A stretch of DNA of 28,879 bases, from IMG/VR virus record IMGVR_UViG_3300047994_000632, positions 1 to 28,879 of that record. One strand, 5' to 3'. This stretch comes from a virus. Below the pieces are notes generated by a model, which worked only from the letters and a program-made list of their open reading frames with translations, was not told where the DNA came from and made no database searches. Below, in pieces: positions 1 to 28,879 of this stretch (within the stretch, counting starts at the first letter, position 1; each line of letters starts with the position of its first letter). A program made the translations under genes and the position numbers.

Positions 1-180
1 TCATTGCTTGCTCCGCGATGGCGTGCCGACGTGGAACTGCGTGCATTGCGGGCAGCGGTACACGTTCAGCGCGCGGTCACGCTTGCGGTTTGAGCTCTTG
101 GCGACGCGGCCGGCCAGGTCTTTGGTTGGGAAGGGCTGCTTGCCTTGGCACTGCGCCCGCGTGTCGGGTGATTGCTGCAT
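1..180 (-). CDS. Small Cys-containing phage protein (half zinc-ribbon-like)
   Basis: This encodes a 59-residue basic protein ending in a short CPQC-x3-H motif (Cys-Pro-x-Cys then Phe-His-Val-Gly). That pattern is seen in tiny phage-encoded zinc-binding proteins; no specific function is known to me. The reading frame stays open up to 204, but I chose the ATG at 178-180 because an AAGGAG lies 6 nt upstream of it, whereas the upstream ATG lies inside a hairpin. A TAAATA element and a perfect 8-bp hairpin (196-225) sit directly upstream, the same arrangement found before the virion genes, so it probably belongs to the same phage. The stop codon is the first three bases of the window, so the gene is complete. 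Confidence 0.6.
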   Translation of the reverse strand: MQQSPDTRAQCQGKQPFPTKDLAGRVAKSSNRKRDRALNVYRCPQCTQFHVGTPSRSKQ

Positions 181-195
181 TCGGTTCTCCTTGAG

Positions 196-225
196 TTCGT
201 ACAACCAGCTGTACGAAGGTATTTA
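196..225 (-). promoter_or_regulatory. TAAATA element plus hairpin (site A)
   Basis: On the minus strand, TAAATA (225-220) is followed after two bases by a perfect inverted repeat: TTCGTACA, 6-nt loop, TGTACGAA (217-196). The AAGGAG ribosome site (192-187) and the ATG (180) follow. A CTCC directly upstream of TAAATA (229-226) could pair with the GGAG. This is one of nine such elements in the window. The promoter role is inferred from repeated position and orientation. Confidence 0.5.
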
Positions 226-290
226 GGAGATCGTGTCGAGATATGCTCTGACAGTGCTTTGCAATAAATTTTCTAGAATAAGGAATGCTC

Positions 291-1154
291 ATGGAAGTCC
301 AGACGATCGCCGAACAACTGTTCTTCACGACGATCCGCATTGATACGGTCTCGGCGAAGGGAGAACGAGGATCTGGAACGGGCTTCTTTGTATTGCACAA
401 GCTCGGCGGCATTGACTACTTGTTCGTGGTTACGAACAAGCATGTCGTCATGGGTCAGCGCGAGGGGCAGCTCTCGTTCCTGAAACAGAAGGATGGGAAG
501 CCTGTACTAGGAGATGGATTCAACCTTCACATCGCATCGACTGATTGGCAGTCAATGTGGTTTGGCCACCCTGATCCGAACGTAGACATCGCGATTTGTG
601 GCTTGGCGCCCCTTCTGGAATTCGTGAAACGCACTCACGGCGTGGACTTGTTCTTTCGGGCGGTGGACACGACGTTGATTCCCACAGTACAACAAGCACA
701 GGAACTGGACGCAGTCGAGTCCGTGACGTTTATCGGCTACCCGAATGGCATTTGGGACAGCAAGAACTTGCTACCGGTATTGCGGCGCGGAACTACGGCG
801 ACACCGATGCAAGTGGACTTTGAAGGAACGCCACGATTCCTCATTGACGCTTCCGTTTTCGGAGGGTCGAGTGGAAGCCCTGTCTTCGTCCTGAATCAAG
901 GATCTTGGGCAACGAAGGCTGGCGGCTTGGTCGCAGGTTCAAGGCTGCATTTCGTCGGCGTGATCGCCGCCGTGTTCTTCCGCACTCATCTGAATCAGAT
1001 CGTCCCGGTGCCGATTCCGACGAACATCCAACCGATGGCACAGCAGCAGGAGATGATCGACCTCGGCATCGTCTTCAAGGCAAGGACCGTGCTTGAAGCA
1101 ATTGAAGCGTTCTTGAAGCACCACAACATCGACACCGCCGTGCAGGCAAAGTAG
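291..1154 (+). CDS. Trypsin-like serine protease, cytoplasmic
   Basis: This is a 287-residue protein with the chymotrypsin-fold catalytic triad in order (numbered from the ATG at 285): GSGTGFF lead-in at about 30-35, His53 in TNKHVV, Asp101 in NVDIAI, and Ser196 in GGSSGSPV. No signal peptide or membrane segment is visible, so it should act in the cytoplasm, which is unusual for HtrA-type proteases; it also lacks a PDZ domain. The ATG at 291 is preferred because AAGGA (280-284) ends 6 nt upstream of it; that site directly abuts the ATG at 285. Its strand is opposite to both neighbours, it lacks a TAAATA element, and it is less GC-rich than the virion genes, so it looks like a cargo (moron) gene. 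Stand-alone trypsin-like proteases occur in defence islands; a defence role here is inference. Confidence 0.8.
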   Translation: MEVQTIAEQLFFTTIRIDTVSAKGERGSGTGFFVLHKLGGIDYLFVVTNKHVVMGQREGQLSFLKQKDGKPVLGDGFNLHIASTDWQSMWFGHPDPNVDIAICGLAPLLEFVKRTHGVDLFFRAVDTTLIPTVQQAQELDAVESVTFIGYPNGIWDSKNLLPVLRRGTTATPMQVDFEGTPRFLIDASVFGGSSGSPVFVLNQGSWATKAGGLVAGSRLHFVGVIAAVFFRTHLNQIVPVPIPTNIQPMAQQQEMIDLGIVFKARTVLEAIEAFLKHHNIDTAVQAK

Positions 1155-1155
1155 A

Positions 1156-1611
1156 TCAGCGCAGCGGCTTCAACCCGCGCGTCAGCTCCCAAGCGGCGCG
1201 GGACTTCTCAGAACGGATCGACCAGTACCAGGTGAACGCCTTCGTGAACAGCAGGTCCTTGTACTTGTCCTCGGTGATGCGACCAGTCTTGTGCTCGTGC
1301 AGCAACTGATCGGCGAACTGCTGATCCAGGTGCTTCGTCGCTTCGAACCAGTCCTTGAACTCAGCGCCGGCCAACTTGCCCCAGCGCGCCTGAAGCTCGC
1401 GCAGCGTCCAGAACGAGTCCTTCTTGATCACGCCCATGTTCGCCGACGCCGCGCTGATCGCGCGCGTCAGCTCCTGATCCCATTCGAGCTGCATGTTCGG
1501 GTCCATCAACTTCGCCTTTCGTCCCGAGCCGGTGCGCTTGCCGCCTGATTTCTTCTGGTCACGGGTCAATCGTTCTTCGGGTGTCTTCTTCGCCGTCATT
1601 CGTTCATCCAA
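1156..1611 (-). CDS. Hypothetical phage protein, 151 aa
   Basis: I do not recognise this family. It is a charged protein with a basic, Gly/Lys-rich N-terminus (about residues 7-36) followed by a mostly helical region rich in Trp and Lys. The internal ATG at 1599 (residue 5) is an equally possible start; neither ATG has a strong ribosome site. It converges with the protease gene, with one base between the two stop codons. A minus-strand TAAATA element with a hairpin lies about 135 nt upstream (1721-1751), linking it to the phage's transcription programme. The basic N-terminal tail could bind nucleic acid, but nothing firmer can be said. Confidence 0.6.
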   Translation of the reverse strand: MDERMTAKKTPEERLTRDQKKSGGKRTGSGRKAKLMDPNMQLEWDQELTRAISAASANMGVIKKDSFWTLRELQARWGKLAGAEFKDWFEATKHLDQQFADQLLHEHKTGRITEDKYKDLLFTKAFTWYWSIRSEKSRAAWELTRGLKPLR

Positions 1612-1647
1612 CTTGGCGCAGGCGCTTGGTCAAACCTGCGGGTTCAT

Positions 1648-1728
1648 CGGCTTGAGACAGCAGGCCCGGATGAGGAACCCTGCGTTGCACAGGAAAAGCG
1701 ACCAAGCTTTACCTGCTGACTCAAGCCG
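1648..1728. repeat. 17-bp imperfect inverted repeat
   Basis: CGGCTTGAGACAGCAGG (1648-1664) is matched by the reverse complement of CCTGCTGACTCAAGCCG (1712-1728), with one mismatch and a 47-bp spacer. The right arm overlaps the hairpin of TAAATA site B, so the leader RNA of the 1156-1611 gene could fold in two mutually exclusive ways. Confidence 0.5.
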
Positions 1729-1751
1729 ACGAGCTTGATTGATCTTATTTA
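1721..1751 (-). promoter_or_regulatory. TAAATA element plus hairpin (site B)
   Basis: Reading the minus strand, TAAATA lies at 1751-1746 and is followed 7 nt later by a perfect 6-bp hairpin, TCAAGC with a 6-nt loop and GCTTGA (1738-1721). It points towards the 1156-1611 gene about 110-140 nt downstream. The layout matches the elements before the virion genes. The promoter function is inferred. Confidence 0.45.
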
Positions 1752-1855
1752 GCCGTTTGCCATCGTGCACGCCGGTTTTGGGATCACGGCTCTGAAAAAG
1801 AACGCGTCCGTTGTCCTGTTGGTCCTCGGGAATGGTTCATGGCTCCAGATTCGCC

Positions 1856-1913
1856 CCTTTTGAAAAGGAAACATCGATAGATAGATATCTAATAGAGAGT
1901 CACCTTTTCAAAA
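1856..1913. repeat. Paired palindromic boxes, possible operators
   Basis: CCTTTTGAAAAGG (1856-1868) is itself a palindrome around a central G. A near copy, CCTTTTCAAAAC, begins at 1903, and together they form an exact 11-bp inverted repeat (1858-1868 and 1903-1913) with a 34-bp AT-rich spacer that contains AGATATCT. Two spaced palindromes around AT-rich DNA resemble a repressor operator pair. No repressor gene is visible beside them. Confidence 0.35.
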
Positions 1914-2424
1914 CGGGCAGACGTGCACTGGCCGCAGGCCAGAGAAACAGGACGGGACGAACGCGGAGCACGGCGCTAGCCGGGCGACGTGGGCGGCGCG
2001 GACTGCCGAGGCGGGACGCCGAGGCCGGCGTGTACAGACATGTGGTCGAGCCAGTTCTGCTGACCTATGACCTTAAGCATGCGCTCGCGTGCCGCGAGCA
2101 GGCGATGTCTCGGCGTGCCGCCTCGACCCGCCTTGACCGCGATGCGGGAGACGGCTAACGAGTCATGAACCATCCGCCCGTGCCAGCTCTTTCTATCCCG
2201 GACGCTGACGCGCCGGGAAGACGCTCATGCCAACGAACGCGTCCTTTCTCAGACCAGATTGCTAGATTGGAAATAGTCACCGATTCCTCGGATTGACCCA
2301 GCAAACAGCTTGGGATACAAGCCGGCCACGGTCGCATTCATGCGATCCGCCGCCCTTTTGAACGCTCCGACAAGCTTGGCGCAATCCGAACATGTGCCTG
2401 CCTTTTAGGAGAGTGAGAAGGGAT

Positions 2425-2454
2425 TGCCATTGGCAGGTTTAGACATGCCTAAAC
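2425..2454. promoter_or_regulatory. Possible operator upstream of secreted-protein gene
   Basis: Two small inverted repeats sit just upstream of the ATG at 2464: TGCCA-t-TGGCA (2425-2435) and GTTTAG-acatgc-CTAAAC (2437-2454). Their position suggests regulator binding over the promoter of the secreted-protein gene. No clear -35/-10 pair could be assigned. Confidence 0.25.
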
Positions 2455-2463
2455 GATTGGAAA

Positions 2464-2829
2464 ATGATGAATATCAGAGCTATTCAAAAGAGTTTCATGG
2501 CTTGTGCAGCCTCCGCCTTCCTCGCTATCCCGCAACTCGCATCTGCAAATATGTCTTGTGGCGGTGTGGTTACATATCTGGGAGTAGGGTCTGACGGTAC
2601 TGTCACAGTGGCGCTTAATGGCTTAAACGCAAATAATATTTGCAATGTGACCACGCAAGGCGTCTATCAGATGAATCCATCCGCTTGCAAGATGGCATAT
2701 GCGACTCTGTTGGCTAGTGAAGTCGCAGGAAGGTCCGCGTCGATCTTCTATAACGATCCCGCGATTACCGCCTGCAGTCAGATTGTCGCCTGGAGTAACC
2801 AGCCTAGTATGTATTTCGTCGCGTCCTAA
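2464..2829 (+). CDS. Small secreted cysteine-containing protein
   Basis: This encodes a 121-residue protein with an N-terminal Sec signal peptide: Lys9, a hydrophobic stretch at about 11-24, and an Ala-Ser-Ala cleavage motif near residue 29. The mature part of about 92 residues has four cysteines that could form two disulfides. I do not assign a function; it fits a family of small exported proteins of unknown role. ATG at 2464 is followed at once by a second ATG at 2467, and the ribosome site (TTGGAAA) is weak. The gene is clearly more AT-rich than the virion genes and lies in tandem with another exported-protein gene, which suggests a lysogenic-conversion pair acquired by transfer. Confidence 0.65.
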   Translation: MMNIRAIQKSFMACAASAFLAIPQLASANMSCGGVVTYLGVGSDGTVTVALNGLNANNICNVTTQGVYQMNPSACKMAYATLLASEVAGRSASIFYNDPAITACSQIVAWSNQPSMYFVAS

Positions 2830-2903
2830 GCATTGTCGTACAACGTCGACTGAATTACGTGTTATGCCTAGAAAATTTGGAGCACTTCATTGAGCTCAAA
2901 ATA

Positions 2904-3464
2904 ATGCGATATCTGATTGAGAATTTTGAAAGAAACTGGCGGGCTTGCGTTGCTGGCTCGCTTAGGTCCCTCTGGATAATATTTCGACTCTGCGTGATAT
3001 GTTTGCTGTCAGTGAACTGGCCCTCGACGGCCAGGGCCGACAGTGCATGTGCGTATTATTTGAGTACGAATTTCTATGGGAATAGTAATTTCACACAGGG
3101 GCAAACGCCAACCTTAACACTGTTTGGAACATTTGGTGCCAATGCCAACGAAGGAACGATCGCATGTACTCCCAGCAGTTCCAGCGTAACTTTTACTGTG
3201 CGAGTTCTTCCCGCCGGAAATTCTCTAGGGCAAATCGTGCTGTACCTGGAAACTCAGACAAACGCACTTCGCTACAATATGTCTGGGCAAGCGAGCATCA
3301 CGCTTCCTCAGCTGCCTGTAGGTAGTTATACGATCGCTTTAGAGGGGTTTTCGGGTGTTGCGATACCCTATTTCAAGAAGTTTTCAATCCTTGCTCCAAA
3401 TGCGCCCACACCGCCTCAGAATAAGGCGCTAGCTCCAATACTGAATATCTTCGTTGAAGATTGA
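2904..3464 (+). CDS. Putative exported protein with beta-rich domain
   Basis: This encodes a 186-residue protein with a long N-terminal region and a hydrophobic segment (about residues 22-38 from this start) ending in Thr-Ala-Arg-Ala, which reads as a signal peptide. The mature part is rich in Ser, Thr, Gly and beta-prone residues, with two cysteines, and looks like a beta-sandwich. The frame is open from a GTG at 2859, but the ATG at 2904 gives a more usual N-terminus; the start is uncertain because neither has a strong ribosome site. The base composition is low-GC like its upstream neighbour, so the two probably arrived together. I recognise no enzyme motif. Confidence 0.55.
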   Translation: MRYLIENFERNWRACVAGSLRSLWIIFRLCVICLLSVNWPSTARADSACAYYLSTNFYGNSNFTQGQTPTLTLFGTFGANANEGTIACTPSSSSVTFTVRVLPAGNSLGQIVLYLETQTNALRYNMSGQASITLPQLPVGSYTIALEGFSGVAIPYFKKFSILAPNAPTPPQNKALAPILNIFVED

Positions 3465-3570
3465 GGGGCGGTCTGCTCGGGCCCGTCTCTCTGTACATCT
3501 CCGGGGGGCGATGCACCGACAATTCGCGGTCGCGCAGAAGCTTGTCTAGTCAAGAGCGCGCGGGATCAAT

Positions 3571-4353
3571 ATGAACACCACCGACCTCGCTTTTTCAGCC
3601 ATCGGCCAGATCGTGATCGCTGGCGGCGGCGGTGCGGCGATCACGTTCCTGTTGATCAAGTCGTTCGGGAAGTCGCTGCTCGACGACTACTTCCAGAAGA
3701 AGGCCGCGAAGTTCAAGACTGAGCAGGACATCGCGCTGGCCGAGCTGAAGCGCGTGCATGATGCCGCCTTGAAGGAGGTTCAGGCATACATCGACAAGGA
3801 CCTGCATCGTGCTCGCAAGCTATACGACCGAGAGTTCGAAGTTCTCTCCGAGGCGTGGATGCTTCTGGTGAAGGCGTTCGATACGACGCTTACCACGATT
3901 GCAAGCTTCGAGACGCGCATCGACTTGCTGGACGACCAGGAACGCGCCCGCCTATTTGAGGCCGGGAAGTTCGCACACTGGCAGATTGACCAGGTGTTGG
4001 CCTTTGAAGGGCAAGCAATGGTCGATGAGTATCGCAAGATCAAAGATCAGAAGCGCCTGTTCGAGTACCGGGAACATCGTCTGGCGTTCGCGAGGTACCT
4101 TGCCATAAACGTAGTGTTCATGCCGAATGGTTTCAAAGAGCGATTTACCGCAATCGATGCCTTGGTAGATGCGGCGCTGCTTGAATTTGATGATCGGATC
4201 AACTTCCCCCCGGCATCTGAAAGGGATGACGCGATCTTGAAGTTGATTCAAGACGGACGCCCGCTGCTCAATGAGCTTGAGCAGTTGATTCATAACCGAA
4301 TCTGGTCGGCTGGTGCCGAGCGCGCCGTTCAGGTTGATGGATCGGCCGCGTAA
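3571..4353 (+). CDS. Membrane-anchored coiled-coil protein
   Basis: This is a 260-residue protein with one N-terminal transmembrane helix (about residues 9-30, including a run of four glycines). A highly charged heptad-like helix follows (about 37-100, rich in Lys, Glu, Ala and Leu), then a mostly helical cytoplasmic domain. Similar one-TM plus coiled-coil proteins are common as orphan genes in mobile elements and defence regions; their function is generally unknown. The ATG follows a weak GGGA 9 nt upstream. The stop codon lies one base from the stop of the convergent recombinase gene. It could be a superinfection-exclusion or membrane-sensing protein, but no motif proves this. Confidence 0.6.
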   Translation: MNTTDLAFSAIGQIVIAGGGGAAITFLLIKSFGKSLLDDYFQKKAAKFKTEQDIALAELKRVHDAALKEVQAYIDKDLHRARKLYDREFEVLSEAWMLLVKAFDTTLTTIASFETRIDLLDDQERARLFEAGKFAHWQIDQVLAFEGQAMVDEYRKIKDQKRLFEYREHRLAFARYLAINVVFMPNGFKERFTAIDALVDAALLEFDDRINFPPASERDDAILKLIQDGRPLLNELEQLIHNRIWSAGAERAVQVDGSAA

Positions 4354-4354
4354 G

Positions 4355-4921
4355 TCACTGCACGCCGAGCATGTACACCGCCGCCAGCTCCTCGGCCTGA
4401 ATCCCGACGTACTTCAGCGTGACCCGGCCGGACTTGTGACCGTACATCTCCTGAAGGATCGCCAGATCGACCTTGTGCTGCGTGCGCATCGTGTACCCGA
4501 AGGTCTTGCGCAGGGAGTGCGATGAGTACTCACCGGTCAACCCGGCCAACTCGCACCAGTGCTTCACCAGCCGGCCGTACGCCGATACCGTGAGCCGCGT
4601 GCCGCGCTTGTGACCGACGAACAGCGGCGCGTCGTCGTGAACCGGCTCGATGCTGGCCAGCAGGCTCGCCAGCGCGTCGATCACGAGCTGGTTCACCGTG
4701 ACGGCACGGCGATTGCCGGTCTTCTTCTCCTTGATCAGCAGCGTGCCGCCGACCCTGAGCGACCGCACGTCGCCGCAGTTCAGGCCAAGGATGTCGGAGG
4801 CGCGGAACGCCGTGTTCGTCGAGATGATGAACAGCGCCAGATCGCGAGGTGAATGCTGTACCACCGCGCGGACCTTCGCGATGTCGTCGCCTTTGAGTGG
4901 TTCAGTCGTGATGTTTCCCAT
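4355..4921 (-). CDS. Minimal tyrosine recombinase/integrase
   Basis: This 188-residue site-specific recombinase consists almost only of the catalytic domain. The expected catalytic residues are all present: Arg40 (TAFRASD), Lys67 (EKKTGN), His135 and Arg138 (HSLRKT), His162 (GHKSG) and the nucleophile Tyr171 (LKYVG). The ATG at 4921 was chosen because GGAG lies 7 nt upstream; an in-frame extension to 5011 has no ribosome site. The length is close to FimB/FimE and well below classical phage integrases (about 300-400 aa), because no SAM-like core-binding or arm-binding domain precedes it. It should cut and rejoin DNA at a short core site, probably in the repeat-rich region directly upstream (4939-5277), for integration/excision or for inversion. 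Confidence 0.85.
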   Translation of the reverse strand: MGNITTEPLKGDDIAKVRAVVQHSPRDLALFIISTNTAFRASDILGLNCGDVRSLRVGGTLLIKEKKTGNRRAVTVNQLVIDALASLLASIEPVHDDAPLFVGHKRGTRLTVSAYGRLVKHWCELAGLTGEYSSHSLRKTFGYTMRTQHKVDLAILQEMYGHKSGRVTLKYVGIQAEELAAVYMLGVQ

Positions 4922-4938
4922 TGGGTATCTCCGTGAGT

Positions 4939-4950
4939 ATTCGTCTATTA
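4939..4950 (+). repeat. 12-bp inverted repeat, left copy (recombinase box)
   Basis: ATTCGTCTATTA lies 18 bp upstream of the recombinase start codon. Its exact reverse complement is at 5266-5277. Either a recombinase binding site or an autoregulatory operator would fit this position. Confidence 0.5.
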
Positions 4951-5056
4951 TTTTTCGCGGCATGACGAACGTACACTGATAAACCCACGGCTCCCGATTG
5001 CCGATTACCACCCAATTGCCTCACCTGGAACCTGGTCCTGAACCTGAACCCGAGCC

Positions 5057-5124
5057 GTCATCCCGAGGTATACCAGCGGGATGACCGGCGACGCCGGTGA
5101 GCCCCGGCGCACCAAGCGCGGGGC
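5057..5124. repeat. Cluster of nested inverted repeats
   Basis: GTCATCCCG (5057-5065) and CGGGATGAC (5077-5085) form a perfect 9-bp inverted repeat enclosing the palindrome GGTATACC (5067-5074). Next come ACCGGCG-A-CGCCGGT (5084-5098) and a GC-rich hairpin, GCCCC-g-GCGC with 5-nt loop and GCGC-GGGGC (5101-5124). None is followed by a T-run, so terminators are unlikely; protein binding or DNA cruciforms are more plausible. Confidence 0.5.
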
Positions 5125-5246
5125 GGTATATGAATATTCACCAGGGCGCCGGCAGGGGAGTCGGTATGCATCCGGTGGCCCTCAGGGGTGTTCGTCGCAT
5201 TCGGCGTGACCCAGTTTGCGCGGTTCTCATCACGAGGACCTCCATT

Positions 5247-5277
5247 ATTCGTCCAATAAGTACATTAATAGACGAAT
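5247..5277. other. Candidate recombination core site (attP-like)
   Basis: Two inverted 12-bp arms, ATTCGTCCAATA (5247-5258) and TAATAGACGAAT (5266-5277), match at 10 of 12 positions and are separated by a 7-bp spacer (AGTACAT). Two inverted arms around a 6-8 bp spacer is the usual layout of tyrosine recombinase crossover sites. It lies upstream of the only recombinase gene. The right arm is repeated in inverse orientation at 4939-4950. The function is inferred. Confidence 0.4.
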
Positions 5278-5511
5278 GGCGTGCCGGCCACCTCGGCGAC
5301 GAATCGCGACAACTCGGCCAATCTAGCCGAAGTGTGTATATGCCATCACCGGCATAGATTAGGTGCAGCCGGAGTGCAACGGGTGTCACCGGGGACCGAT
5401 TTGGATTCCGGACCTCGGTTTGGGGCGCGGCGGGTCGTGCAACCCCAAAGTGCGGGTGCGTCCGCTCAGATCGAAGGTACAGGCACTATTTCAGTCGGGC
5501 AATATTCGGGT

Positions 5512-6348
5512 TCACTTGGTGCCAAGCTTCCGAAGTGCTCCTGCCTGCTCTTGTGGGATGACGAATTGCACCAAGAGGCATGCCAGCTGATCAAGTACAA
5601 GCCTGCCAAATTCCAGCGTATGACCGGACCAGATAATTAGCGCTACTTGCAGAGATGACAAGCACGCCATATATCTGAGCTGCTCTTCTGGGGACATATC
5701 TGCTGCGTCGCTCGGTGTGAACGTCGCCTCGCAGTCTGCATGCAGCCGATTGTACGATTTAACGAATTCCGCGCTGAATTGATCCCCATGATCTAACACG
5801 CCCATTCGGAACAGCAGCTCCAACAGGAAAAGTCTATATTTTGGGATTCCCTCAAATTCATGCGTCTCAAATGGATTTGGCATCGTTAACCGGACGAGAC
5901 GTTCGTAGTGCCGTACGCGCGCTTTCCACATTACTCGTTTTGCAGCAGTTGCGTCGAAGTCCTTCAACATACGAACGGGAAACTTCGTATCCGGGTCTAG
6001 TTTCCAATATTCGAATTCCTCTTCGGGTATGGCGTAGCGAATTTCTCCGCTTTTTAGATTTTTGCGAACGACGATTGTTAGCTCATTGCTAAGAATCCAA
6101 TTTCGCACAGTCAGAGCGTCGCAGTATTCTGTCCAATCTGAAGGGTTTTTGTCAAATTCGTCTGATGCTTTGACCTGAATGAATATCTTGAAGGGTTCAA
6201 TGATTTCATCCTCTTCGGCGTAGACGAAGAAGTCCTCCCCGAAATCATCTGCAATATCATTGCAGACGTACCCGAGGTCTTCAAAGATCGTCCAGACGGC
6301 GGTCTCACCACGCCTTCCAGTCCTTTGATTTCTTGAGTTTTTCGCCAC
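5512..6348 (-). CDS. DUF4365-like nuclease-fold protein
   Basis: This is a 278-residue protein whose first 100 residues match the DUF4365 pattern of the PD-(D/E)xK nuclease fold. The elements are Gly-Arg-Arg-Gly-Glu (11-15, Glu15), Gly-Glu-Asp-Phe (Asp39) and Ile-Gln-Val-Lys (Gln58-x-Lys60). In this family those residues are expected to bind metal and cleave DNA or RNA. The rest (about 110-278) is a helical domain I do not recognise. The start is a GTG at 6348 with GGGAG 5 nt upstream. The gene is more AT-rich than the late genes and lies on the opposite strand beside the recombinase, which is typical of prophage cargo. DUF4365 proteins are often found near defence genes; a role against competing phages is inference. 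Confidence 0.7.
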   Translation of the reverse strand: MAKNSRNQRTGRRGETAVWTIFEDLGYVCNDIADDFGEDFFVYAEEDEIIEPFKIFIQVKASDEFDKNPSDWTEYCDALTVRNWILSNELTIVVRKNLKSGEIRYAIPEEEFEYWKLDPDTKFPVRMLKDFDATAAKRVMWKARVRHYERLVRLTMPNPFETHEFEGIPKYRLFLLELLFRMGVLDHGDQFSAEFVKSYNRLHADCEATFTPSDAADMSPEEQLRYMACLSSLQVALIIWSGHTLEFGRLVLDQLACLLVQFVIPQEQAGALRKLGTK

Positions 6349-6391
6349 TCACGCTCCCTGATGTTGGTTTTCATGTGCCAGCGATCAGACT

Positions 6392-6781
6392 CTAATCTGG
6401 AATGCGAGTTCGTCGGCGCTTCTTAGAGGCCTGGATCTGCGGCGAGTGCAGCATCAGCAGGTCCTTCGCGACCTCATTCGCGCTGATCGGCACGTACAGC
6501 TGCTGCTGTTCGTACCAGACCAGGATCTCTAGCCAGTTCGGCTGAGGTCGGCCAGCGGCCTTCCAGGCGGCCCGGCGATCAGCCCAGGGCGTGACCGCCG
6601 CTGCTGCGGCGCATCGCTCCTCCCATGCATCTAGGAACTCGTTCATCGCGTCCAGCGAGGCATATGCCTGCAGGACGTGCTGGGCCAGCGTGCCGGCCTT
6701 GAGCATGTGAACTAGGTTCGACGGCATGCCCATCCGGTGCAGGCTTTGGTACGTATCGCGGTAGTTCTTGGCTTTGGACAT
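6392..6781 (-). CDS. Hypothetical phage protein, 129 aa
   Basis: This encodes a 129-residue helical protein, Ala- and Trp-rich in the middle, with a strongly basic C-terminus (Lys-Lys-Arg-Arg-Arg-Thr-Arg). I do not recognise it. The ATG at 6781 gives a sensible N-terminus; a GTG at 6832 would add 17 residues but would overlap the TAAATA element of the divergent terminase operon. It lies 43 bp upstream of the DUF4365 gene in the same direction. Coding GC resembles the virion genes rather than the cargo, so it is probably native to the phage. A DNA-binding role would suit the basic tail but is not shown. Confidence 0.55.
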   Translation of the reverse strand: MSKAKNYRDTYQSLHRMGMPSNLVHMLKAGTLAQHVLQAYASLDAMNEFLDAWEERCAAAAAVTPWADRRAAWKAAGRPQPNWLEILVWYEQQQLYVPISANEVAKDLLMLHSPQIQASKKRRRTRIPD

Positions 6782-6810
6782 GCCGGTACTTAGCCTCGGC
6801 GTCGGTTTAC

Positions 6811-6816
6811 TAAATA
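6811..6816 (+). promoter_or_regulatory. TAAATA element upstream of terminase genes (site C)
   Basis: TAAATA sits 60 bp upstream of the small-terminase start. The next eight bases include the palindrome ACGCGCGT, and a perfect 8-bp inverted repeat GCAAGCGC/GCGCTTGC (6848-6855 and 6867-6874) ends 2 nt before the ATG, so the start region is structured. It probably begins the packaging transcript. The role is inferred from the repeated motif. Confidence 0.5.
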
Positions 6817-6876
6817 CGCGCGTCCCAATCACCCGCCCATCTCGAACGCAAGCGCGCCATCGAGAAGCGCTTGCCC

Positions 6877-7296
6877 ATGACGCACGTACAAACGTCGGCG
6901 ACCGAGCCCGACGAAACCGCCGTATCGCCCGAGGTTGACCGGTTCCTCCGAGCCGAGGCCGTTGTAGCGGCCATCAATCTCGCCGCCGCCGACGAGGGCC
7001 TGCCACCCATCCCCCGCGACTATGTCTTCAGAAAGCGTGACCGCGAGTCGGTCAGCGCGGCGTTCCATGCCGCGTTCGAGCTGATCGGCGGCGTGCCGGC
7101 GCTGATGCAGTGGGCGCAGCACAACCCGGACAAGTTCTTCCCGCTCTATCAGCGGTTCGCGCAGAGCGACACGCTGACGCCGACCGGGAACACCTTCGTC
7201 TTCAACAGCGCGATCCCGCCGAACCCGCTGGATCTGGTGAACGTCAAGGACGGGCAGGTCGTGCTTGAGGCCGACACCGGCGAGCTGCCCGAATGA
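6877..7296 (+). CDS. Putative terminase small subunit
   Basis: This encodes a 139-residue protein directly upstream of, and overlapping by 4 nt, the large terminase gene. The central segment reads Gly-Gly-Val-Pro-Ala-Leu-x-x-Trp-Ala...Asn-Pro-x-x-Phe...Tyr-x-x-Phe. This resembles the conserved core of many small terminases, where a 'GGVEALxxWA...FY' pattern is common. It would recognise the packaging site on phage DNA and regulate the large subunit. A TTG at 6871 is a possible alternative start, but the ATG at 6877 has a GAGA-type ribosome site at suitable distance. The assignment rests on position plus this motif, since small terminases diverge quickly. Confidence 0.65.
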   Translation: MTHVQTSATEPDETAVSPEVDRFLRAEAVVAAINLAAADEGLPPIPRDYVFRKRDRESVSAAFHAAFELIGGVPALMQWAQHNPDKFFPLYQRFAQSDTLTPTGNTFVFNSAIPPNPLDLVNVKDGQVVLEADTGELPE

Positions 7297-8708
7297 GGCG
7301 CGAGGTCCGGTTCTCATACAAGCCGCGCAAGCAGTTCATGCCGTTCCATGCGCGGCACCAGCGGTTCGCGCTGATCGTGGCGCACCGGCGCTGCGGCAAG
7401 ACCGTCGCGGTGGTCAATGACCTGGTCGTCCGCGCGCTGCGCACGCCGAAGCGCGACGCGTTCTACGCGTACGTCGCGCCGACTTACGGTCAGGCCAAGA
7501 ACATCGCCTGGACGTACGTCAAGGAGGCGGTGCGCGACCTGCCGCCCGGTCTGGTCAAGATCAGCGAATCGGAGACCTCGGTCCTGCTGCCGAACGGCGC
7601 CAAGATCCGGCTGTTCGGCGTGGACAACCCGGACGCGATGCGCGGCCTGCGCCTGGACGGCGCGGTGCTGGACGAATTCGGGGAGTTCGAGGGCCGGGCG
7701 TGGTCAGAGGTCATCCGGCCGGCGCTCGCCGACCGGCGCGGGTTTGCGATCTTCATTGGCACGCCGAAGGGGCCGGTGAACAAGTTCGCGCAGATGCGCG
7801 AGAAGGCGATGCGGCCGGACAGCGGCTGGTTCTACCTGGAGCTGAAGGCGTCGCAGACGGGCATCCTGCCGGCGTCCGAGCTGGAGGCGCTCCGTCAGGA
7901 GATGGACGAGAACGAGTACGCGCAGGAGCTGGAGTGCTCGTTTCAAGCGGCGGTGCGCGGCGCGTACTACGGGACGCACATGGCTGACCTGGAGCGGAAC
8001 GGCGCGATCTGCGACGTGCCGTACCTCGCCGATGAGCCCGTGACCATCGCGATGGACCTTGGCTTTGCCGACGCGCTGTCGATCTGGTTCTATCAGGTCG
8101 TCGATGGGCGCGTCCGGTTCTTCGACTACTTCGAGGCGACCGGCATGGACGCCGAGCAGACGCTTGATCTGCTGGAGCTGCGCCCGTACGCGTACGAGAC
8201 GATGTTCCTGCCGCACGACGCGAAGGCCAGGACCTTCCGCTCCAAGAAATCCGTGATCGACACGTTCATTGAGCGCTCGGCGCCAGCTCGGCTTGTTCCG
8301 AAGCTCGAAATCAAGGACGGCATCGACGCCGTCCGCAAGACGCTGCGCACGTACCCCGTGCTGTTCGACGCGACCCGGTGCGAGCGCGGCCTGAAGTGCC
8401 TGCGGAACTACCAGCGCAAGTGGGACAAGGACGGCGGCGTGTACTCGAACACCCCGATCCACGACCAGTGGAGCCACGGCGCCGACGCGTTCAGGTACGC
8501 CTGCACGGTGATCAACCAAGACACGTTGCAGCGCTCGAAGGAGCGCGGAATGCAGCGCCGCGCGCAGGTCCAGCGCGACCGGCAAGCGACCGGGTTCGGT
8601 TCACTAAATACCTCCGAACAAAACGAGGTGTGGACCCTAAACGACGCGTTCAAGCATCACGCGCGACAGAAGGCCGCCCGAGCTAGCTACGGGGACCCAG
8701 CGCTATGA
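7293..8708 (+). CDS. terL: Terminase large subunit (packaging ATPase/nuclease)
   Basis: This is a 471-residue DNA-packaging motor protein. The ATPase domain has a Walker A-type motif HRRCGKT (31-37), Walker B with Asp127-Glu128 in GAVLDEF, and coupling motif GTPKG (156-160). The RNase H-like nuclease domain has acidic residues Asp255 (AMDLGFAD), the HDA motif at 308-310 and Asp398 in HGADAF. The length and order of motifs are complete for the family. ATG overlaps the previous stop (ATGA), indicating translational coupling. It docks on the portal encoded next and cuts concatemeric DNA. A TAAATA element is embedded near its 3' end, so the portal can be transcribed separately. Confidence 0.95.
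   Translation: MRREVRFSYKPRKQFMPFHARHQRFALIVAHRRCGKTVAVVNDLVVRALRTPKRDAFYAYVAPTYGQAKNIAWTYVKEAVRDLPPGLVKISESETSVLLPNGAKIRLFGVDNPDAMRGLRLDGAVLDEFGEFEGRAWSEVIRPALADRRGFAIFIGTPKGPVNKFAQMREKAMRPDSGWFYLELKASQTGILPASELEALRQEMDENEYAQELECSFQAAVRGAYYGTHMADLERNGAICDVPYLADEPVTIAMDLGFADALSIWFYQVVDGRVRFFDYFEATGMDAEQTLDLLELRPYAYETMFLPHDAKARTFRSKKSVIDTFIERSAPARLVPKLEIKDGIDAVRKTLRTYPVLFDATRCERGLKCLRNYQRKWDKDGGVYSNTPIHDQWSHGADAFRYACTVINQDTLQRSKERGMQRRAQVQRDRQATGFGSLNTSEQNEVWTLNDAFKHHARQKAARASYGDPAL
8605..8628 (+). promoter_or_regulatory. TAAATA element plus hairpin inside terL (site D)
   Basis: TAAATA (8605-8610) lies in the 3' coding part of terL, 95 bp before the portal ATG, and is immediately followed by a short hairpin: CCTC and GAGG (8611-8628), extendable by one G-C pair with a bulged C. 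It has the same layout as the intergenic elements although it must also encode terminase residues, which suggests selection for the motif. Confidence 0.45.
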
Positions 8709-10810
8709 GCCATGTGTACGGCGATGAATTTGAGACGGGCGTGTCAGAGGACGCGTTCGAGCAAGACCCAGTGCTTGCAAAGTACCAGACCGAAGACGAG
8801 CAGGCGCACTGGCTCGACGAGCTGAAGGCGTCCCGGAAGGAGCGCGAGAAGTTCAACAAGGTCGCGACGGAGACGATCAAGCGGTACGGCGACGAGGGCA
8901 GTGCCGAGAACCCGGGCATGTCCAGGTACAACCTGTTCGCCTCGAACACCGACATGAAGCGCGCCGCGCTGTACGCGCAGACTCCGGTACCGACCGTGAA
9001 GCGCCGCTTTGATGACGCCGACGACGACGTGGCGCGTGTTGCTGGGTACCTCGTTGAGCGCTCCATCGCGTACGAGCTGGAATGCGGCGGCTTCGACGCG
9101 AAGTTCAAGCAGACGCTGTTCGACTGGAAGGTGCCGGGCATCGGGGTGAACTGGGTTCGCCTGGAGCAGACCGAATCCGAACCGACGACCGCGATCCAAC
9201 CGGCGCAGGACCCGCTGACGGGTCAGACCGTCATGCAGGAGGTGCCAGTCCCGCCGCAGGTAACGAACCAGTTCGCGGAAATCGACTACGTCGCGTGGAA
9301 CGACTTCTTCTGGTCGCCATGCACGGTGTGGACGATGTGCCGCTGGGTCGGCCGTCGCGTACCGATGAGCAAGCCGGCTATCGGTGATCGCTTCGGCCAC
9401 ACCGCTCCGCCCGATGTGCTGGCCGGCCTGAGCTTCACCAAGCCAACCGAGACGAACAAGACGGATCGACTGGCGAACCTGCTCCCGCAGAACCAGACTG
9501 AGGCAACCGTCGATGTCTTCGAGCTTTGGGACAAGGAGCGCAGGGTTACGTTCTGGATCGCTGAAGGCGCCGCCGTACCGCTCGATGTTCAAGGCGATGT
9601 CTGCGAGTTCGACGGCTTCTTCCCGACGCCGCTGCCGCCGCTCGGTCGCTTCGACACGTCGAACACGCTGCCGATCAGCGACTACAAGCTGGTGCAAAAC
9701 CAGTACCGTGAGCTGGACAGCCTGAACACCCGCGCAGCGAATCTGGCTCGCGCCCTGAAGCTGCGCTTCATGTACGACGCGGGGAACACGGACCTCGCCA
9801 CGCTGTTCACTGAGACGAACGAGCTGGAAGGGGTGCCCGTCAAGGACTGGTTGATGTTCGTGACCGAGAAGGGCGGTCTACAAGGCTCCGTTCAGTTCAC
9901 GCCGCTGAACGAAACCGTGCAGGCCTATCAAGGCATCCTTGCAGCCCGCGACTCGGTGAAGGCTCAGATCTTCGAGATTGAGGGCATCAGCGACATCATG
10001 CGCGCCGCCTCGATGCCGTACGAGTCGGCCAGCGCCGTCGCGTCGAAGGCGACGTTCGGCTCATCGCGTCTCTCGATGGATCAACGCGAGGTCGCCGATT
10101 ACATCGCACGCACGCTGCGCCTGAAGGCGCACCTGATCTGCAAGTTCTACCAGCCAGAGTTCATCTTGAAGCGCGCGGGCATCATCCCGCAGGCTGATCA
10201 GCAGTACGTCCCGGCAGCGATCCAGCTGCTGAAGGACGCGCAGTCGAACTACTTCCGCCTGGAGGTTTCGACCGACTCCATCGAGCTGCCGAACTGGAAC
10301 CAGAAGACCGCCGAGAAGGCGCAGGTCATTCAGGCGATCAGCGGGATGGCTTCACAACTCGGCCCGCTCGTGCACCAGATTCCGGAGCTTGTGCCGTTCC
10401 TGGCGCAGATGACGAAGTGGGGCGTCGCAGGCATGAAGGGAACGGCGGAGCTAGAAGGCTTCCTTGATCGCACCATCGACCAGATGGAACGTGCGCTGGC
10501 CGCGCAGCAGGGACAGCCGAAGCCGCCGTCGCCGGACGAGATGAAGGCCCAGCAGGCTCAGGCACAAACCCAAGCAGCGGCGCAGATCGCGCAAGAGAAG
10601 GCGCAGGCCCAAGTTCAAGTCGCTCAGATCCAAGCGCAGGCGAAGACCGAAGCTGCCGCGCTGCAGGCGCAGCTCGACAAGTACAAGGCCGACTCCGACA
10701 ACCAGCTTCGACAGATGGAGCTGGCGATCAAGGCCATGAATGCCAGGACCGCGCGCCTCGACGCCGTGCATGGAAACGCGCTGGATGTCGCCACGCTGGG
10801 AGTCGCCTGA
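8705..10810 (+). CDS. Portal protein
   Basis: A 701-residue portal (head-tail connector ring) is indicated by its position right after terL, its length close to P22-type portals (about 725), and its composition. The N-terminal 560 residues are mixed alpha/beta with many Tyr/Trp/Pro residues. The last 110 or so are a long Gln/Ala-rich helix, resembling the C-terminal coiled-coil barrel of podovirus portals. The start codon overlaps the terL stop (ATGA). Its dodecamer would form the DNA entry channel at one capsid vertex and bind the terminase. The end overlaps the next gene by one base (TGATG). Confidence 0.85.
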   Translation: MSHVYGDEFETGVSEDAFEQDPVLAKYQTEDEQAHWLDELKASRKEREKFNKVATETIKRYGDEGSAENPGMSRYNLFASNTDMKRAALYAQTPVPTVKRRFDDADDDVARVAGYLVERSIAYELECGGFDAKFKQTLFDWKVPGIGVNWVRLEQTESEPTTAIQPAQDPLTGQTVMQEVPVPPQVTNQFAEIDYVAWNDFFWSPCTVWTMCRWVGRRVPMSKPAIGDRFGHTAPPDVLAGLSFTKPTETNKTDRLANLLPQNQTEATVDVFELWDKERRVTFWIAEGAAVPLDVQGDVCEFDGFFPTPLPPLGRFDTSNTLPISDYKLVQNQYRELDSLNTRAANLARALKLRFMYDAGNTDLATLFTETNELEGVPVKDWLMFVTEKGGLQGSVQFTPLNETVQAYQGILAARDSVKAQIFEIEGISDIMRAASMPYESASAVASKATFGSSRLSMDQREVADYIARTLRLKAHLICKFYQPEFILKRAGIIPQADQQYVPAAIQLLKDAQSNYFRLEVSTDSIELPNWNQKTAEKAQVIQAISGMASQLGPLVHQIPELVPFLAQMTKWGVAGMKGTAELEGFLDRTIDQMERALAAQQGQPKPPSPDEMKAQQAQAQTQAAAQIAQEKAQAQVQVAQIQAQAKTEAAALQAQLDKYKADSDNQLRQMELAIKAMNARTARLDAVHGNALDVATLGVA

Positions 10811-18821: not shown

Positions 18822-20278
18822 TGGACAGCGGCTCATCGGCACCAGCACCAGACTACGTCGGCCAAGCGCAAGCCACTGCGGCCGGCAACCTAGAGAACCT
18901 GAAGTACCAGACCGTCGCCAACCGGCCGACGATCCAGACGCCCTGGGGGACTGACACCTGGAGCACTCCAGACGCGAACGGCCAGCAAACCGAGACGGTC
19001 ACGCTGACGCCTGACACGCAGGCCGCGCTCGACGCCCAGCAGAAGGTCCAGAACAACCAGTCGCAACTTGCTGCGTACATGCAGGGCCAAGTCGCGAACA
19101 CGATGAGTACGCCGTTCCAGGCGCCGTCGATGTCCGACTACATGAGCTCGGTCCCTGGCGTTCAGTCGAACTTCGCTGGCTTCTCGCCAACGGGCGTTGG
19201 TGGAACGAACCAGCAGTCGTTCAACCCGTCGATGTTCACGCGCGGCAACCAGCAGGTCGGCCAGAACCTGAACACGGGCGCGAACAACCTCAATCAGAAC
19301 TTCACGTCATCGGCTCAGAACGTCAACACCGACGCCCAGGGCGCAGTAGCTGGCGCCGGCACCGTCAACCAAAACACGCCGCAGTTCTCGGATGCAACGG
19401 CTCAAGCTGGCGCGCAGTCCGCCTATGACGCCGCGCACTCGCTGATCGCAGACCAGCAGAGCCAGGACACGACCAACCTAGACACGCAGCTCCGCATGCA
19501 GGGGCTGATGCCGGGCACTGAGGCGTACAACAACGCGGCGCAGAATCTGTCCCGCACGCAGGCCCAGCAGAACAACAACCTTGCAGCGCAGGCCGTTCAG
19601 GTCGGGAACAACGAGGCCAATCAGAACTACGCCTCGGCGCTGGCGGGGTACAACGCGAATCTTGGCGCGCAGAACCAAGCCTATGCCCAAGGTGCGAACA
19701 CCTTCAGCCTTGGCAACTCAGCGCTTGGTCAGCACTACGGCCAGGACGCGAACACGGTTTCGCTGAACAACGCTGCGAGCACGCAGCAGTCGCAGAACGC
19801 AATCAACACGTTCAACGCGCAGAACGCGGCACGCACCCAGGCCCAGACCAACAGCCTTGCGAACTACAACGCGGCGCTGGCAGGGCAGGGGGCATACAAC
19901 ACGGCCCAGAACCAAGCCTACAACCAAGCGTTGGCTGGCTACGGCGCAAACCAAACGGCGCAGGCTCAGTCGAACGCAGCGCAAGCTCAGCAGTACGGGC
20001 AGGCCATGCAGAACTACAACACTGCGTACAACACGGCTTACCAGAACTACAACACGCCGCTGAACGAGATGAACGCCGTCCTGTACGGCAATCAAGTCCA
20101 GAACCCGAACTTCGGCTCGTACGCGCAGTCTGGCTACGTCGGTGGCGCTGACCTCACGACCGCCGCGCAGAACCAAGGCCAATACCAATCGGCTCAGGAC
20201 GCAGCAAGCACTGCGTCGAACAACGGCACGATGGGCATGATCGGCAGCTTGGCCGCTGCCGCAGCGATTGCGTACTGA
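18821..20278 (+). CDS. Asn/Gln/Ala-rich virion (ejection-type) protein
   Basis: This is a 485-residue low-complexity protein. The N-terminal 60 residues contain a 'Thr-Pro-Trp-Gly-Thr-Asp-Thr-Trp' strand typical of podovirus proteins encoded near the tail. The remainder is a long series of Ala/Gln/Asn/Tyr-rich helices with a Gly/Ala hydrophobic C-terminus. Such composition fits internal proteins ejected with the DNA, or a tail-associated sheath; no enzyme motif is present. The stop overlaps the next gene (TGATGG). Confidence 0.55.
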   Translation: MDSGSSAPAPDYVGQAQATAAGNLENLKYQTVANRPTIQTPWGTDTWSTPDANGQQTETVTLTPDTQAALDAQQKVQNNQSQLAAYMQGQVANTMSTPFQAPSMSDYMSSVPGVQSNFAGFSPTGVGGTNQQSFNPSMFTRGNQQVGQNLNTGANNLNQNFTSSAQNVNTDAQGAVAGAGTVNQNTPQFSDATAQAGAQSAYDAAHSLIADQQSQDTTNLDTQLRMQGLMPGTEAYNNAAQNLSRTQAQQNNNLAAQAVQVGNNEANQNYASALAGYNANLGAQNQAYAQGANTFSLGNSALGQHYGQDANTVSLNNAASTQQSQNAINTFNAQNAARTQAQTNSLANYNAALAGQGAYNTAQNQAYNQALAGYGANQTAQAQSNAAQAQQYGQAMQNYNTAYNTAYQNYNTPLNEMNAVLYGNQVQNPNFGSYAQSGYVGGADLTTAAQNQGQYQSAQDAASTASNNGTMGMIGSLAAAAAIAY

Positions 20279-21018
20279 TGGAGCTGGAAGCCGCGCTCAA
20301 GCAGCACGCCGGTCACGTTGCGCTGCAATTCAGCGGTGGGCGTGACAGCCTTGCGATGCTGCTGCTGTTGCGGCCGTACTGGGATCGCGTCACCGTGTAC
20401 TACACGGCGTCAGGTGATGCGTACCCGGAGACGCTGGCCTTGGCCCATGCGGTCAGCCAGCACGTTCCGCGCTTCGTCCAGATTGAGGGCAAAGTGAAGG
20501 AGACGCACACGAAGCACGGCTGGCCGTCCGATGTCCTGCCCGCTGGCGCAACTTGGCGGTTTGGCAAGGAGCACATCAAGGGCCATCTGCCGCTCATCGA
20601 CCGCCACAATTGCTGCTACCTCTCAATCATGGCGCCGATGCACGAGCGCATGCGGGCCGATGACATCACGCTGATCCTGCGCGGCCAGCGTGATGCCGAT
20701 GAGCCCAAGAGCCACGTCAAGAACGGCGAGACGGTCGATGGCTTCACCATCATGTACCCGATTGCTGACTGGTCCGCCGAGCAGGTAGATGCGTTCATCG
20801 AAGCTCAAGGCCTGCTGCTGCCACCGTACTACGCCGCAGGCGCCACCTCAGCCCCGGATTGCATGCACTGCACGGCATGGCTTGAGACCAACGCGCATAA
20901 ATACCTGCGAACAAATCACCCGGCCGTGGCAAGCGAAGTGCAGCGCCGGCTGAATCAAATCAAGGTGAGCGTCGAGCCCTTCATGCGGAACCTCGACCTC
21001 AACGCAGGAGCAGCCTGA
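20278..21018 (+). CDS. PP-loop ATPase, PAPS-reductase/DndC-like
   Basis: This 246-residue protein belongs to the adenine nucleotide alpha-hydrolase (PAPS reductase) superfamily. The PP-loop is Ser-Gly-Gly-Arg-Asp-Ser (19-24). A second conserved block, Arg-Gly-Gln-Arg-Asp-Ala-Asp-Glu-Pro, lies at 135-143. Four cysteines, Cys112-Cys113 and Cys195-x2-Cys198, could hold an iron-sulfur cluster or zinc. Relatives reduce PAPS or activate sulfur or nitrogen insertion in nucleic acids (DndC, tRNA thiolation). It is unlikely to serve sulfate assimilation inside a tail operon, where it is coupled on both sides by one-base overlaps. A role in modifying phage or host nucleic acid is inference. Confidence 0.8.
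   Translation: MELEAALKQHAGHVALQFSGGRDSLAMLLLLRPYWDRVTVYYTASGDAYPETLALAHAVSQHVPRFVQIEGKVKETHTKHGWPSDVLPAGATWRFGKEHIKGHLPLIDRHNCCYLSIMAPMHERMRADDITLILRGQRDADEPKSHVKNGETVDGFTIMYPIADWSAEQVDAFIEAQGLLLPPYYAAGATSAPDCMHCTAWLETNAHKYLRTNHPAVASEVQRRLNQIKVSVEPFMRNLDLNAGAA

Positions 21019-28416: not shown

Positions 28417-28879
<463 letters not shown>

Follow-up and report, generated by a model that had tools for sequence, protein, structure and literature searches.

A candidate lox-like module of a minimal tyrosine recombinase and its predicted sites in a phage genome

The window, the whole stretch of 28,879 nucleotides from a virus record that was analysed here, harbours a gene for a tyrosine recombinase consisting of the catalytic domain only, with two related two-armed sites directly upstream. 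The gene and its sites probably constitute a self-contained lox-like phage module, serving multimer resolution or circularisation of a plasmid-like genome as Cre/loxP does in P1.

The recombinase and its two upstream sites

The recombinase gene lies on the minus strand (4355..4921). Its start is likely the ATG at 4919-4921, which gives a protein of 188 aa. This codon has a GGAG ribosome site and the same position relative to the upstream site, 17 bp away, as the start codon of the homologue L095. It was preferred over a 218-aa open reading frame reaching 5011, which is probably too long. The start at 4921 is nevertheless a predicted one, since an in-frame ATG further upstream, at 4963, would add 14 residues, a length that fits the N-terminal tail of several relatives.

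The protein was identified as a tyrosine recombinase by its match to PF00589 (1.9e-20, Pfam) and as a member of PHROG 216 by a profile match (phrog_216) over the protein (6.9e-39). An earlier note, made from the sequence, had described an enzyme with all catalytic residues and without an N-terminal DNA-binding domain, and both statements were borne out. The six residues R40, K67, H135, R138, H162 and Y171 are all present, and an alignment of 50 relatives showed no variation at any of them. The AlphaFold model (pLDDT 92) comprises the catalytic domain alone, with neither the N-terminal core-binding domain nor the arm-binding domain of lambda-type integrases, and its fold matches XerA, XerH and Cre. 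FimB and FimE profiles scored 29 and 28 bits on the protein (cut-offs 221 and 222). The XerC, XerD and XerA equivalog models scored far better, at 54-68 bits, but remained below their cut-offs of 220-335. Profiles and folds thus point to a Xer/Cre-like enzyme and not to a member of the FimB/FimE family.

The distal, core-like site (site I, minus strand, 5247..5277) is an imperfect 12-7-12 palindrome, ATTCGTCTATTA-ATGTACT-TATTGGACGAAT, in which 10 of the 12 arm positions pair. It resembles the core sites of the family, among them a perfect 12-7-12 site in L095, and is proposed to be the crossover site. The perfect 12-bp inverted repeats from which the earlier note had started are both there: positions 4939-4950 read ATTCGTCTATTA, positions 5266-5277 read its exact reverse complement, and the right copy is indeed one half of the core-like site. 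The left copy does not stand alone: together with GACGAA at 4964-4969 it makes up a degenerate two-armed site (4939..4970, minus strand, at the site II position), 17 bp before the start codon. As had been suggested for an extra operator, this proximal site is predicted to be a likely operator or accessory site. The centres of the two sites are 307 bp apart, and the spacer between them (4971..5246) is presumed to be the recombinase promoter region; no consensus promoter was found in it. A further palindrome of unrelated sequence, with GTCATCCCG arms pairing at 9 of 10 positions, lies between the sites at about 5057-5085.

A chance palindrome was ruled out by counting. The 12-mer ATTCGTCTATTA occurs three times in the window at up to 2 mismatches, always at the recombinase locus (0.49 expected), a number reached in 1 of 100 shuffles. 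The outer-arm pair TTCGTC-N14..24-GACGAA was found exactly twice in 28.9 kb, at 4940-4969 and 5248-5276 (0.03 expected; 0 of 100 shuffles). Two other readings were rejected, as no terminator was found at the repeats and no tRNA that could serve as attachment site was found in the window. The proximal and distal sites have an arm in common, but their overlaps are unrelated (at best 3 of 7 bases match), and they are therefore unlikely to recombine with each other.

Core sites of the family

About 160 relatives were gathered from plasmids, phages and chromosomes, the scans giving 79 genome loci and 80 viral loci. Upstream of many of these recombinase genes, commonly at 100-200 bp, a near-perfect palindrome was found with arms of 11-14 bp and a spacer of 6-8 bp. 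A palindrome score of at least 10 was obtained upstream at 37 of 118 loci and never in shuffles; five downstream control stretches also reach this score. In 47 upstream stretches the score is 6 or lower, so that the core is not visible at every locus. Core arms and recombinase sequences covary (Mantel r 0.40; 0 of 2000 permutations). In the main group of relatives a second site is present nearer to the gene, with the same arms placed 11 bp, one helical turn, further apart; arm pairs widened by 9 to 12 bp were counted 15 times versus 0.05 expected. This second site overlaps the recombinase promoter and is located about 114 bp from the core. The window deviates from this arrangement in the 307 bp between its sites, in the core-like spacing of both and in its imperfect core.

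The recombinase of L095 is 45% identical to that of the window. Its contig carries a perfect 12-7-12 core (2127-2157) with the outer arm of the window site (ATTCGTCTAT), at 7.7 kb from the gene, and a near match to window 4939-4970 at 9837-9869, with 17 bp between it and the ATG. The exact arm pattern TTCGTCTA-N12..17-TAGACGAA was found in 41 stretches of viral contigs, which is of the same order as a rough estimate of the chance number, and the L095 contig is the only one of these that also has the recombinase. A large serine recombinase, a candidate separate integrase, is encoded on the same contig (12346-14046). The distance of the L095 core from its gene counts against a lox-like module, as do the imperfect pairing (10/12) and the spacing of 307 bp instead of about 114 bp in the window. 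The imperfect core and the unusual spacing would agree with autoregulation alone, in which both sites, lying upstream of the recombinase gene, serve as operators in a phage that is no longer recombined. However, the recombinase has lost none of its catalytic residues, which do not vary across the family, and perfect cores have been retained in many relatives; this explanation is considered quite improbable.

The plasmids pDCAR5 and pCP157_08 and the element Ssp-JY41 have one clear core apiece. These single cores, together with the unrelated overlaps in the window, argue that the reaction would take place between copies of the same site. An extra, weaker palindrome elsewhere on the plasmids pC and pMB09 is a point against the lox-like module.

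In a chromosomal branch (L055, L090, L077, L076, L085, L078, L069, L047 and L228) two inverted cores are found about 120 bp apart, for instance at 4715-4870 in L055 and at 5760-5920 in L090. Overlaps match at 6-8 of 8 bases in 9 of 10 pairs, the recombinase promoter lies between both cores, and in some cases a possible divergent gene is located beyond. The pairs were chosen and aligned by eye and are for that reason regarded as a lead. They may represent an invertible promoter; a comparison of the same segment among Rhodobacteraceae for an inverted state yielded too few homologues to compare. It was proposed earlier, as one of two options, that the window itself could hold a FimS-like switch, recombination of 4939-4970 with 5247-5277 flipping the segment and altering expression of the recombinase or its neighbours. 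The inverted 12-bp repeats around the upstream region and the chromosomal pairs with their matching overlaps around a promoter would suit such a switch. The overlaps of the window sites, in contrast to those of the chromosomal pairs, are unrelated, and the recombinase falls outside the FimB/FimE family, so that the proposal was abandoned as highly improbable for the window. It may nonetheless be true of its chromosomal cousins.

Replicons and gene neighbourhoods

The nearest annotated relatives are plasmid-borne, one (45%) on the 9.5-kb plasmid pDCAR5 and others on cyanobacterial and marine plasmids. Among the closest relatives are recombinases of plasmids whose replicons carry ParA/Rep genes, and one relative resides on Ssp-JY41, an element with Rep and ParA. 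On the Spartinivicinus plasmid pC, which is circular and 82 kb long, a relative occurs together with phage virion genes and a perfect core site. Another relative is found in phage Lietuvens, which encodes an actin-like protein and, in the parts examined, no other annotated integrase. Counted against a lox-like module were the absence of a recognisable replication or partition gene from the 28.9-kb window fragment and of ParA (PF13614) from 42 viral records with relatives. Queries with the recombinase, TerL and portal proteins did not retrieve close relatives of the window phage.

The gene for the large terminase subunit (TerL; 7293..8708, plus strand) is located 2.4 kb from the recombinase gene of the window. 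Phage relatives lie less than 3 kb from TerL in 23 of the 25 records in which TerL was located, with several TerL types represented, and additional relatives adjoining TerL were found among phrog_2 matches. L106 and L110 display the order replication initiator, small gene, sites, recombinase and TerL, and the TTCGTC arm is present in both.

A phage integrase with its attP, integrating at a host site that resembles 5247-5277 and using the second site to regulate expression, was also weighed. PHROG 216 is annotated as 'integrase', a core beside the gene is typical of attP, the window has no other integrase and in L002 a tRNA-Thr is located just downstream of the recombinase. On the other hand, the modelled protein lacks the core-binding and arm-binding domains, and Streptococcus SM1 and Listeria PLM34 possess a separate full-size integrase besides the recombinase relative. 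Furthermore, many relatives belong to plasmids or plasmid-like phages, and the complete ones have a single clear core each; in bacterial genomes covered by a pattern search the recombinase usually has one core, alone or accompanied just by the nearby second site, a distant second copy as in an attL/attR pair usually being absent. An integrase with attP is thus unlikely: of the attachment site suggested earlier, the core-like site at 5247-5277 stands, but its role as attP is weakened.

Under the favoured lox-like module, the 188-aa recombinase would bind as a dimer to the 12-7-12 palindrome 5247-5277 of each DNA copy, and strand exchange between two such copies would occur inside the 7-bp spacer. 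Since two copies would come together in a multimer or in a terminally redundant linear genome, the outcome would be resolution to monomers and/or circularisation, comparable to Cre/loxP in P1. Bound at 4939-4970, where the corresponding site of relatives overlaps the recombinase promoter, the recombinase would repress its own gene and/or use the site as an accessory. We infer this binding, catalysis and repression, and with them a circular plasmid-like stage of the window phage.

Known systems, other window features and significance

With Cre/loxP of P1 the module shares a phage-borne tyrosine recombinase and, in cis near packaging genes, a palindromic site built of two arms and a spacer; loxP is located near pac in P1, to be compared with the TerL neighbourhood of the phage relatives. 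The cognate inverted-repeat core in cis is a site predicted by family comparison at 5247-5277. Multimer resolution and circularisation, as in P1, are the functions proposed for the module. loxP is a 13-8-13 site and the window site is 12-7-12. Cre is a protein of 343 aa with an N-terminal core-binding domain, and structural alignments give 17-20% identity with the window recombinase, which consists of the catalytic domain alone and is accompanied by a second site at the promoter. Xer/dif systems (XerA, XerC, XerD, XerH), of which XerA and XerH act as single recombinases, provide the best profile and fold matches, but the window protein is far below the XerC/XerD/XerA cut-offs, lacks the N-terminal domain and has a gene-linked site on a mobile element. 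FimB/FimE invertases are similar in size, in being catalytic domains only and in having inverted repeats upstream, but differ in the profile score (29 bits, cut-off 221) and in that the window sites have no overlap in common. TnpI/IRS of Tn4430 likewise has a core inverted repeat and, close to the promoter of the recombinase gene, additional recombinase sites; those sites are directly repeated and TnpI is a larger protein, whereas in the relatives the second site repeats the core arms with one more helical turn between them. Small PHROG 216 'integrases' (gp32 of Streptococcus SM1 and others) belong to the same protein family, are about 30% identical to the window recombinase and share the terminase or cos neighbourhood, some of them beside a true integrase.

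Several other features of the window were observed. A trypsin-like protease (285-1154) matches the candidate defence family PDC-S45 (2.6e-97) and phrog_7688, and a possible defence nuclease at 5512-6348 has a weak DUF4365 and Aga_REase-type match. A phosphoadenosine phosphosulfate reductase-like gene (20278-21018) lies amid structural genes. The contig, which may break at an insertion sequence, ends on the right with a DDE (rve) transposase fragment (28502-28867). The G+C content rises from about 55% in positions 1-7000 to 63% in 7000-28879, with the step at the terminase, and the left 7 kb may therefore have a different origin.

Among the papers of an open-access library, from which most subscription journals are absent, none was found to name such a module. 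It is tentatively suggested, as a possibility that is itself somewhat doubtful, that the family represents a widespread class of minimal, self-contained modules that has apparently gone undescribed. Each would consist of a recombinase of some 190 aa that lacks the core-binding domain, its own palindromic core and, over the promoter at a nearly constant distance of about 114 bp, a second site whose arms are the same but lie farther apart by one helical turn. Such modules would resolve multimers on plasmids and phages, and the chromosomal inverted pair could flip a promoter. The findings suggest a reinterpretation of 'integrase' genes adjoining phage terminases as systems for resolution or circularisation, and a possible conversion of the module into a promoter inversion system in bacterial chromosomes. 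With its natural site mapped, a recombinase reduced to the catalytic domain and roughly half as large as Cre would be a useful tool, and the family, in which arms covary with the protein, is a large natural collection of recombinases paired with their sites.
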